Shown here: piece after piece, positions 32,763 through 60,651 of the stretch
Position numbering within the stretch: position 1 is the first letter of the stretch
Layout of the letters: each line of letters opens with the position of its first letter
Source of the DNA: Geodermatophilus sp. YIM 151500
GTDB lineage: Bacteria; Actinomycetota; Actinomycetes; Mycobacteriales; Geodermatophilaceae
Assembly (NCBI RefSeq): GCF_025716945.1
Contig: NZ_JAOVZT010000006.1
Span: 236,276 to 300,275, forward strand
DNA: 64,000 nt
Direction: 5' to 3'
Notes under the pieces: generated by a model
Databases searched by the model: none
What the model saw: the letters and a program-made list of their open reading frames with translations, nothing else
What the model was told of the DNA's origin: nothing
Program-made: the position numbers and the translations under genes

Positions 32763-34066
<1,304 letters not shown>

Positions 34067-50751: not shown

Positions 50752-50812
50752 GGAAGGGCCCTCCTGCCGCCGCCCCGAGCGTCGGCGAGGGGTGGAGGCA
50801 GGAGGGCCCTTC
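50752..50812. repeat. Palindromic repeat element (family copy 1)
   Basis: 16-bp perfect arms GAAGGGCCCTCCTGCC (50753-50768 and complement 50797-50812) around 28 bases. Read on the minus strand, its core contains CACCCCTCGC followed by GCTCGGGGCG, which also occur in the element at 60078-60134. It sits one base past the PhyH-like gene stop and may also act as its terminator. Confidence 0.78.
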
Positions 50813-50813
50813 T

Positions 50814-52001
50814 TCAGAATGCGTTGGCGTGCCGCTCGGCCTGGGCGGTCAGCTCGGCGTCCAGCGCCTCGGACGTCCACTGCTCCTGCAGGGCGCGCCA
50901 GACCAGCTCGGCCTGGGTCTCGGGGGCGAGGCCGCCGATCGGCTGGTCGCGGTCGAGGTTCGTGGGGAAGGCGTAGCCCTCGGCGGAGGCGGCGACCACG
51001 TTGCGCAGGGTGCGCTCGTCGACACCGGCGGCCCGCTGCGCCAGCAGGACCGGGTGGAGCGCCCGGCTCATGGCCGCGCGGTCGACGGTCTCCATGGCGC
51101 GGCCGAAGGCGGAGGACACCTGCAGCAGGTTGGCCATGCGGCGGACGTCGGTCGAGCGGTTGGTACCCGCGCCGTGGAACAGGGCCGGGTTGAAGAAGGC
51201 GGCGTCGCCCTTCCGCAGCGGCAGCTGCACGAAGTGCTCGTCGAAGTAGGCGGTGAACTCCGGCTGGTGGAAGGCGACGTAGCCGGGGGCGTACTTCTGC
51301 GAGTGCGGCAGGTACATCGTCGGCCCGGTGACCACCGGCATGTCGCAGTGCGCCACCGCGCCCTGCAAGGTCATGACGGGGGAGAGGCGGTGCACGTGGG
51401 CCGGGTAGGCGAGGGCCTGCTCCTCGGACATGAACCCGAGGTGGTAGTCGCGGTGGGCGACCTGGGCCTTGCCGCCGGGGTTCACCACGTTGACCTGGCT
51501 GGTGACCTGGTACCCGCGGCCCAGCCAGGCCTCCGAGACGAGGGCGAGCACGTCGTTGCCGTAGTACTCGGCGAACAGCTGCGGCTCGCGGACGGCGAAC
51601 TTGTCGAGCGCCCCCCAGATGCGGTCGTTGGCGCCGGGCGTGGCGAAGTGGTCGCCGCCGACGACCCCGGCGGCCTTCTGCTCGGCGATCACCGCTTCGA
51701 AGACGGCGGTGGCCCGGTCGACGACGCCCGCGTCGGGGAAGGCGTCGGCGAAGACCACGATGCCGGGACCCTCGGCCAGCGCCCGGGCCAGCTCGGCCTG
51801 CACGTCCCGGCGGCCCTCCGGCGTGGTGACGTGGTTGCGCAGCCGGGATCCGTAGACGAGGACGTTCTCCCGGACCTCGTCGGCGTAGGGGTGGTCGGCG
51901 AGGTCGGTGGTCGTCTCGACGATCGCGCGGAAGTCCGCCAGCCGGCAGTCGTCCGCGGTGAACCAGCCGCGGGTGGTCGGGGGAGAGGCCAGGGTGTGCA
52001 C
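50814..52001 (-). CDS. Phytanoyl-CoA dioxygenase (PhyH) family oxygenase
   Basis: A 395-residue Fe(II)/2-oxoglutarate-type oxygenase. The metal triad is visible: His183-x-Asp185 in VAHRDYHLGF and His276 in FFNPALFHGAGTNRS, with Arg282 nearby to hold 2-oxoglutarate. Members hydroxylate or demethylate small molecules. The GTG at 52001 follows GGAAGGA at seven bases; longer starts lack a site. It is divergent from a LacI regulator and upstream of TIM-barrel protein 1, so it probably acts on the imported carbohydrate or an ether or methyl derivative of it. Confidence 0.87.
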   Translation of the reverse strand: MHTLASPPTTRGWFTADDCRLADFRAIVETTTDLADHPYADEVRENVLVYGSRLRNHVTTPEGRRDVQAELARALAEGPGIVVFADAFPDAGVVDRATAVFEAVIAEQKAAGVVGGDHFATPGANDRIWGALDKFAVREPQLFAEYYGNDVLALVSEAWLGRGYQVTSQVNVVNPGGKAQVAHRDYHLGFMSEEQALAYPAHVHRLSPVMTLQGAVAHCDMPVVTGPTMYLPHSQKYAPGYVAFHQPEFTAYFDEHFVQLPLRKGDAAFFNPALFHGAGTNRSTDVRRMANLLQVSSAFGRAMETVDRAAMSRALHPVLLAQRAAGVDERTLRNVVAASAEGYAFPTNLDRDQPIGGLAPETQAELVWRALQEQWTSEALDAELTAQAERHANAF

Positions 52002-52087
52002 GGCGACGTCCTTCCGGAGCGGGATGAGATGTCGTCGAGCCTGACGGGTGAGGGCGGGGATCACAAGGGTGCCGAACCATCGCAGAT

Positions 52088-52104
52088 CCATCATTTGTCC
52101 CTCA
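52088..52104. promoter_or_regulatory. Possible regulator site in the PhyH/LacI divergent region
   Basis: CCATCA-TTTGT-CCCTCA: on the minus strand this reads as two TGAKGG hexamers spaced 11 bases apart. A related arrangement is at 53162-53178 on the other side of the LacI gene. It overlaps the LacI gene's likely -10. The evidence is pattern only. Confidence 0.3.
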
Positions 52105-58512: not shown

Positions 58513-59526
58513 ATGCGGATCGGACTCATCGGGCTCGGCAGGATCGGGGCCTTCCACGCCGGCACGCTGGTCGGCATCCCGGCGATCGAGTCGCTCGTGG
58601 TCACCGACATCGTGCCCGAGAAGACGAAGCAGATCGTCGACCGCCACCACGCGGAGGGGGTGGAGGGCGTCGACTCCCTGGAGGCGCTGGTCGCCTCCGG
58701 CGTCGACGGGGTGATCATCGCGGCCGGAACCGATGCGCATCCCGAGCTCGTCCTCGCCTGCGTCGACGCCGGGCTGCCGACGCTGTGCGAGAAGCCGGTG
58801 GCGCAGACCGGAGCGGCGGGAGCCGAGCTGCTCCGCCGGCTCGAGGGCTCCACCGTGCCCGTCCAGATCGGGTTCCAGCGCCGTTACGACGCCGCCATCG
58901 CCGCCGCCCGGGCCGCGGTCGTCAGCGGCGAACTCGGCTGGATCAACACGATCCGGTCCACCACGCTCGACCCCGAACCGCCGCCCCCGGAGTACGTCGC
59001 GGTCTCCGGAGGGATGTTCCGCGACTGCGGCGTGCACGACTTCGACGTCATCCGCTGGGTCACCGGACAGGAAGTGGTGGAGGTCTACGCCACCGGGAGC
59101 AACCGGGGCGCGGACTTCTTCCGTCGGTACGACGACGTGGACACCTCCGCGGCCATCCTCACCTTCGCCGACGGCGCGCTCGGGATCGTGTCGAACACCC
59201 GTTACAACGCGCGCGGCTACGACGTGCGGCTGGAGGTCCACGGCTCGCGGGACAGCGTCGCCGCCGGCGTCGACGACGGGTGGCCCATCCGCGCCACCGA
59301 ACCAGGGGTGGCCTTCCCGGCCGGCCCGCCGCACCGGTTCTTCATGGACCGGTTCCTGCCGGCGTTCCGGGCGGAGTTCGAGACCTTCCTGGAGGTCGTC
59401 GCCGGGAACCGGCCCTCGCCGTGCACGGTCGCCGACGGGCTGGAGGCGGACTGGATCGCCGAGGCCTGCGCCCGATCGGTGACGGAGCACCGGCCGGTAC
59501 GGATCGCGGAGGTGCGCATCGCATGA
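58513..59526 (+). CDS. Gfo/Idh/MocA family oxidoreductase D (inositol dehydrogenase-like)
   Basis: A 337-residue dehydrogenase with a standard Rossmann loop (IGLIGLGRIGAFHAGTL), TLCEKPVAQTGAAGAE, QIGFQRRYDAAIAAAR and DCGVHDFDVIRWVTGQE as the catalytic region. It is similar in layout to enzyme B. The ATG follows a GAGAGG sequence. Its stop overlaps the next (broken) dehydrogenase gene by ATGA. A myo-/scyllo-inositol type substrate is likely but unproven. Confidence 0.9.
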   Translation: MRIGLIGLGRIGAFHAGTLVGIPAIESLVVTDIVPEKTKQIVDRHHAEGVEGVDSLEALVASGVDGVIIAAGTDAHPELVLACVDAGLPTLCEKPVAQTGAAGAELLRRLEGSTVPVQIGFQRRYDAAIAAARAAVVSGELGWINTIRSTTLDPEPPPPEYVAVSGGMFRDCGVHDFDVIRWVTGQEVVEVYATGSNRGADFFRRYDDVDTSAAILTFADGALGIVSNTRYNARGYDVRLEVHGSRDSVAAGVDDGWPIRATEPGVAFPAGPPHRFFMDRFLPAFRAEFETFLEVVAGNRPSPCTVADGLEADWIAEACARSVTEHRPVRIAEVRIA

Positions 59527-60651
59527 CCGACGCCACCACTGCTCCGGACACTGCGCACGGGAGTGCCGAGCCGTCGGGACCGCCCGAACCGCTGCGGCTC
59601 GGCGTGCTGGGGGCGGCGCGCATCGCCGAACTCGCGATCGTCGAGCCGGCGCGGGCGACCGGGCACCGCCTCGTGGCGATCGCCGCCCGCGACCAGGCGC
59701 GAGCCTCGGCATTCGCGGCGGAGCACGGGGTGGAACGGGCGCTCGCGTCCTACGACGACGTCGTCGCCGCACCTGATGTCGAGGCCGTCTACAACCCGCT
59801 CCCCAACGCGCTGCACGGCACGTGGAACCTGGCCGCGATCGAGGCCGGCAAGCACGTGCTGTCGGAGAAGCCGTTCGCCGCGAACGCGGAGGAGGCAGCA
59901 GACGTCGCCGCTGCGGCCCACCGCAGCGGTGTGACCGTGGTCGAGGGCTTCCACTACCGATTCCACCCGGTGACGCGGCGGCTGCTCGAGCTCCTGGCCT
60001 CCGGGGAGCTGGGTGAGCTGGTGCACGTCGAGACGACGCTGGAGATCCAGGACCCGGGTGCGGGCGACCCGCGCTGTGGAAGGACCCCGTCCTTCTCACC
60101 CCTCGCGAGCTCGGGGCGAGCCTCGGGACGGGGCCGCCGGCGGGGCCACGATGGACCTCGGCTGCTACAGCCTGCACGCCCAGCGGGTGCTCGCGCGCTG
60201 GGGCGGTGGGGAGCCGGAGCTGGTCTCCGCCCGGGCCGGCGAGCGGCCGGGCGAGCCGGGCGTGGACGAGTGGCTGGACGCGCGGCTGCGGTTCCCCTCG
60301 GGAGCGACCGGGGTGGCCCGCTGCCACATGGCCAGCGACCGCCGGCAGATGACCTACCGGGTCGTCGGCAGCCGGGGCGAGGCGCTCGTCGCGAACTTCG
60401 TCGAGCCCCACCGGGACGACCGGGTGGTCATCCGGACCCCGGCCGGTGAGCACGTGGAACGCCACGGCACGCGGTCGTCCTACACCTACCAGCTCGAGGC
60501 GTTCGGCCGCGCGGTCCGCGAGGGCGCCCCGCTGCCGGTCGGCGTCGACGACGCCGTCGCCAACATGCGGTTGATCGACGCCTGCTACGCGGCCGCCGGA
60601 CTGCGCCCCCGGCCCCGGGCGACGATCGCGCCGCACGGGGCCGGGGCGTGA
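59523..60651 (+). pseudogene. Broken Gfo/Idh/MocA oxidoreductase E
   Basis: The gene starts normally (RLGVLGAARIAELAIVEPAR, VLSEKPFAANAEEAA, VEGFHYRFHPVTRRL) and is in frame to about 60075. It is then interrupted by a palindromic repeat (60078-60134), and the rest (TMDLGCYSLHAQRVLARWG onward to the stop at 60649-60651) continues in the +1 frame. The first part reads on out of frame to a stop at 60449, giving about 308 residues of which only the first 184 are native. The missing active-site loop makes a working enzyme unlikely. Confidence 0.82.
60078..60134. repeat. Palindromic repeat element (family copy 2) inserted in a gene
   Basis: About 57 bases beginning GGAAGGACCCCGTCC. Outer pairing is CCCCGTCC (60085-60092) with GGACGGGG (60126-60133), and an inner AAGGAC-CCC-GTCCTT is present. 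It shares GAAGG, CACCCCTCGC and GCTCGGGGCG in the same order with the minus-strand reading of 50752-50812. It interrupts oxidoreductase E. Confidence 0.75.

Follow-up and report, generated by a model that had tools for sequence, protein, structure and literature searches.

The analysed stretch of Geodermatophilus sp. YIM 151500, referred to here as the window, is 64,000 nucleotides long and carries two overlapping dehydrogenase genes on its forward strand. The first (58513..59526) is an intact open frame of the Gfo/Idh/MocA type, the family being named from the sequence without a profile hit. Its stop codon, TGA at 59524-59526, is overlapped by the ATG at 59523 of the second gene, giving the ATGA coupling that the initial annotation had pointed out. 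This second gene (59523-60651) is broken. Its N-terminal half (59523..60074), delimited by alignment to orthologues, consists of 184 native codons ending in CGC at 60072-60074 and encodes a Rossmann domain (PF01408, E 5.3e-21). It is followed by a left junction, TGTG (60075..60078), defined by comparison with L033/L035 and other copies of the repeat, and by a 57-nt palindromic element on the same strand (60079..60135), recognised by its fold and by BLAST, nhmmer and covariance-model matches. Native coding resumes with GCC at 60136 in a C-terminal half (60136..60651) that runs in a shifted frame to its own stop at 60649-60651 and is identified by PF22725 (E 7e-13), PF02894 (E 6e-10) and orthologue identity. 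Both the Rossmann domain and the Gfo/Idh/MocA C-terminal domain are found by Pfam, but not in one frame, in agreement with the two displaced halves first described.

Between 60075 and the ATG at 60151 there are 76 nt, which puts the frame off by one, as had been calculated initially. The frameshift caused by the element means that the native start yields a 308-residue product composed of the Rossmann half and a nonsense tail; in the list of open reading frames this frame (59523..60449, forward strand) contains 184 native and 124 out-of-frame residues and stops at 60447-60449. Neither half of the gene contains a further frameshift or stop, and no close paralogue able to replace the gene is present in its own genome.

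Relatives of the broken gene occur in 13 other genomes of the same family, and the junction was read in 11 of them. In all 11, the Arg codon is followed, after exactly 15 nt (W-S-L/F-x-L), by the (A/G/S)GGA(T/L)MDLG codons, and none contains an insert of this kind. The same interval in the window, from the last Arg codon to the GCC of AGGATMDLG, measures 61 nt. The net gain of 46 nt is the balance of about 59 nt acquired and about 13 native nt removed after a shared TG, and 57 of the 59 gained nucleotides (60079-60135) match the repeat family. The relatives intact at the site include G033 and G061, which are 90% and 83% identical in amino acids over the C-terminal half. The expectation of an uninterrupted gene in close relatives is thus borne out, though with a difference of 46 nt instead of the predicted 40 or so. 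Likewise, a palindromic element was indeed gained, but as a replacement rather than a clean insertion, because about 13 native nt are gone, a loss that the initial annotation had not noticed.

The proposal that the break is recent also stands, since the gene carries no other lesion and the codon changes on the window branch (30 synonymous and 23 nonsynonymous) are not clearly looser than those of intact relatives (30 and 12 for G033, 23 and 21 for G061). The break, which may be fixed or strain-specific, was seen in the one genome of its genus that the analysis covered. From its sequence, the broken gene itself is best described as an ordinary recent pseudogene. A separate observation concerns an orthologue, 88-89% identical, in the Modestobacter RYN_176 MAG (L062, the same locus as L034; contig JAOPWO010000052.1). 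Here the contig ends at CG|ATGGACC, position 1, about 14 nt from the place of the 3' edge of the element in the window, possibly at the same or another repeat. The N-terminal half of the orthologue is absent from this MAG, which is 67% complete.

The element at the join belongs to a family with genome-wide matches at E values far below chance, so the 57-base palindrome noticed at first sight is a genuine repeat, whose kinship with other stop-adjacent copies had then been missed. At least about 50 copies are found in the own genome with a 101-nt probe, and about 49 distinct copies score at least 28 bits with nhmmer among the loci fetched. Geodermatophilaceae are bacteria of soils and deserts, and a consensus DNA probe matches 96 of 108 of their genomes. 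Among 200 genomes sampled from the order, a covariance model is positive in 27 of 28 Geodermatophilaceae and in 3 of 172 genomes of other families, none with more than two copies, and the repeat family is thus essentially confined to Geodermatophilaceae within this sample. The three outside matches (G164, G173 and G248) have good covariance scores and could reflect transfer, contamination or binning error. No match to phage or plasmid carriage of the repeat was found, and no Rfam covariance model matches above its gathering score.

A search of the window for the loop region gave no further near-exact copy, and only the covariance model brought up a divergent member (50756..50812, reverse strand; 36.7 bits, E 1e-5; fold -48.3 kcal/mol, z -5.9). 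This copy is normally placed, directly after the TGA of the reverse-strand ORF 50814-52094, whose sequence suggests a phytanoyl-CoA dioxygenase-like protein. At another locus, about four element units repeat in tandem every 50 nt downstream of a gene (L048 1530-1776; G000:C2, about 33530-33775), an array that looks like a composite of the BIME kind. A companion sequence (GGACCCCCCTGCCCCCCACCGTGGAAGGACC and GGGACCCTGCAGGGGGG) recurs around elements at L012, L016, L004 and L046; since it surrounds several elements, composite repeats exist.

Members of the family are 57-60 nt long and consist of two nested stems. The outer stem has about 10 bp, the inner stem has 7 bp with a usual A.C mismatch, and the loop is TCGCNNGCTC; a constant 5' box, RRGGACC / GAAGGACC, and a 3' end GGGGCC complete the element. 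In the copy at the join, the outer stem is GG(A)CCCCGTCC/GGACGGGGCC, the inner stem is CTC(A)CCCC/GGGG(C)GAG, and the 10-nt loop is TCGCGAGCTC. The minimum-energy structure of this copy as RNA, folded as a 58-nt element, is the family fold (-31.8 kcal/mol), moderately exceptional at z -2.1, while the fold of the 86-nt region with DNA parameters, at z -0.5, is not exceptional.

Subfamilies read from elements that were chosen by 5' box and loop only have different outer stems that nevertheless stay complementary (CCCCGTCC/GGACGGGG, CCCCGCTG/CAGCGGGG, CCACCCTC/GAGGGTGG, CCTCCCTC/GAGGGAGG and others), whereas the loop TCGCNNGCTC and the 5' box are constant across them. The same complementarity is seen in a set of 31 model-aligned copies taken from two regions of close relatives and from other loci, although the figures obtained from it lean towards structure, the alignment being fitted to the model and the shuffles ignoring relatedness. 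In these copies, 95% of cells are paired, compared with 80% after shuffling and 40-56% after sliding. Double-change cells number 70 against 22 expected, and changes on both sides occur in 11 of 17 pairs. The covariation score of 0.368, against 0.124, is attained by none of 500 shuffles and exceeds all slid controls. Compensatory change thus preserves the stems even as subfamilies diverge in sequence, a pattern that would lend indirect support to transcription of the repeat.

The usual place of a copy is on the coding strand, 0-3 nt past a stop codon. In the own genome, 24 of the 35 copies with a same-strand upstream gene end start within 6 nt after the stop, where 5.3 are expected from uniform placement in the same gaps (maximum 14 in 20,000 placements). 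In other genomes (40 regions of the family and two 200-kb regions) the same is true of 40 of 52 such copies, gene ends in both counts being those of a home-made gene caller. Typical joins are CTGA-N-GAAGGACC, TAGAAGGACC and T-GAAGGACC, in which the element helps to form the stop. Of all copies with flanks that were read, only that at 60079-60135 clearly sits in mid-gene. Among copies read in other genomes, L222 (G013:C4) alone overlaps a gene; it reaches into the 3' end of a gene called on the opposite strand, where two genes probably converge.

Occupancy of these positions differs between species. The gene ends that carry six of the copies in the own genome were compared with their orthologues in G033, G061, G025 and G108. 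Most of these orthologous ends are empty; a few carry another subfamily (L002 and L005 sites), and one, at the L008 site in G025, carries a similar element. Turnover is therefore fast, since orthologous gene ends are often empty or occupied by another subfamily. Genomes G048 and G051, which align over 178 kb at 93.5% identity, share the element at some gene ends, while others are filled in one genome only, as in CGCCTGA|AGAAGGACCCC... versus CGCCTGA|CGGCC. At still other ends the elements of the two genomes differ in subfamily or orientation; the flanks are mostly 94-99% identical. Of the features of a MITE, inverted ends are present, and no target-site duplication is seen at the window site or at the clean filled/empty site in G048/G051, clean pairs being few. 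These presence/absence differences between species suggest that the element moves.

Several known repeat systems resemble the family in part. The definition of REP sequences and their stop-proximal subset has been set out for enterobacteria (PMC12306157). Like REPs, the Geodermatophilaceae repeat is short, palindromic, multi-copy and extragenic, has a shared consensus, lies at gene 3' ends and seldom overlaps coding sequence, the copy at the join being the exception. The REPs of Escherichia coli measure 14-40 nt, and about 11% of them are no farther than 15 nt from a stop by the count in that study (PMC12306157). The present repeat is 57-60 nt long with two nested stems, mostly lies 0-3 nt past the stop and is essentially confined to Geodermatophilaceae. 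The GTAG REPs often supply the stop codon TAG from their termini and have intragenic copies in some species (PMC3733652), so both the stop-supplying and the intragenic habit have precedents. GTAG REPs and the CGTC-tagged families, which lack a transposase, share with the present repeat the formation of subfamilies with alternative complementary stems, but the latter has no conserved GTAG or CGTC end; Actinobacteria are absent from the phyla listed for these two types (PMC3733652; PMC2817692). The PF01797 profile of RAYT-type Y1 transposases has no match in any of the 108 family genomes, and a control search finds it in E. coli. Membership in a RAYT-mobilised GTAG family is ruled out by the missing tag and by the absence of PF01797 from the 108 genomes. 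RAYT is, to our knowledge, the only REP transposase. The idea of an autonomous partner between inverted copies was rejected, since the two genes found in such a place read as a 6-phosphogluconate dehydrogenase and a 2'-5' RNA ligase-like protein (both named from sequence without a profile).

The nearest actinobacterial analogue in habit is the mycobacterial interspersed repetitive unit (MIRU). Like the present repeat, MIRUs are short, apparently mobile and located at stop/start junctions in gene orientation, but they include a short gene-coupled ORF, whereas the repeat described here is a hairpin unit in which no ORF is seen (PMC12548453). Palindromic repeats also occur inside protein-coding genes in Rickettsia. 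Those elements lie in frame within genes that stay open, in contrast to the window copy, which is out of frame and breaks its gene. They are among the repeats mentioned in PMC3733652.

Taken together, the locus is very probably the product of a recent inactivation by a REP-like, stop-proximal hairpin repeat of Geodermatophilaceae, with a putative REP-like function for the repeat. At codon 185, one copy took the place of about 13 native bases, adding 46 nt net and shifting the frame. The 5' box RRGGACC normally abuts, or partly supplies, the stop of the same-strand upstream gene, and between species about 93% identical a site may be filled, emptied or taken over by another subfamily. In enterobacteria, ribosome stalling or reduced translation is reported for REPs no more than 15 nt from a stop, and REPs are reported to protect mRNA 3' ends (PMC12306157). 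By analogy, the repeat would work like these stop-proximal REPs, at the RNA level, its hairpin acting where the coding region ends, on mRNA 3'-end stability, transcription termination or ribosome release. The family would spread by some copy mechanism, no mobilising enzyme having been found, and mid-gene copies would normally be purged by selection, the window copy being a tolerated or not-yet-purged exception.

The route by which the element arrived is a separate matter, and microhomology-mediated copying instead of transposition, with the same element still breaking the gene, has a chance somewhat short of even. A nascent strand would have switched from the gene (CGCTG) to a donor copy (CGCTGA plus element) and returned at GGGGCC/GCC. 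The left junction is suggestive in this respect, as CGCTG is common to typical copies, the TG of TGTG is common to the native TGG, and the in-frame TGT occupies the place of the stop TGA in canonical copies, with CTG retained as in CTGA. Such copying would account for the roughly 13 lost nucleotides and for the missing duplication, no target-site duplication being visible at the window site; these two features suit it at least as well as transposition, and the PF01797 enzyme is absent from the family. The L003 copy is even preceded by GGCGACCTGCGCTG, 13/14 identical to the target. However, this match was noticed only after the fact, and the window element is nearest to L002 (2 differences) and not to L003 (5); a donor cannot be named.

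With respect to function, the repeats may be transcription terminators without a U-tract at gene ends, the window copy then ending transcription in mid-gene, a reading that seems possible but rather unlikely. Strong coding-strand hairpins directly past stop codons would suit this role, but a U-run is lacking, and a terminator scan is negative at the element, where no T-run follows the GC-rich hairpin. The position is also not conserved as in a needed terminator, because the element is missing from orthologous gene ends or is replaced there by another subfamily. A broader and rather improbable proposal is that the family constitutes an undescribed class of stop-codon-seeking, two-stem RNA/DNA hairpins that non-RAYT machinery copies to gene ends across Geodermatophilaceae and whose stems diversify by compensatory change. 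The window copy would then show this machinery acting at a non-stop site, on TG-G in place of TG-A.

An assembly or base-calling error, which would make the palindrome or the frameshift unreal, is very improbable. The element is a high-copy repeat, and the MAG contig of a relative ends within about 15 nt of the same site; yet the unique flanks both lie in the same gene about 60 bp apart, under read length, and replacement of 13 nt by 59 nt from a bona fide family member is unlike a homopolymer slip. It is hardly credible that the gene still functions by programmed -1 frameshifting across a short insert, for although both frames are open across the element, no standard slippery heptamer is seen at the junction, and the insert would separate the conserved Arg-Trp from AGGATMDLG, with no relative carrying such an insert.

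The lasting interest of the locus is the repeat family rather than the pseudogene. No earlier description of this family, or of any REP-type family in Geodermatophilaceae, was found in the open-access literature searched. The repeats represent lineage-wide, rapidly exchanging structured 3'-end elements in an actinobacterial family and offer a case of REP-like spread without RAYTs. The many natural pairs of orthologous genes with and without an element would allow the effects of a stop-touching hairpin on translation termination and mRNA decay to be tested.
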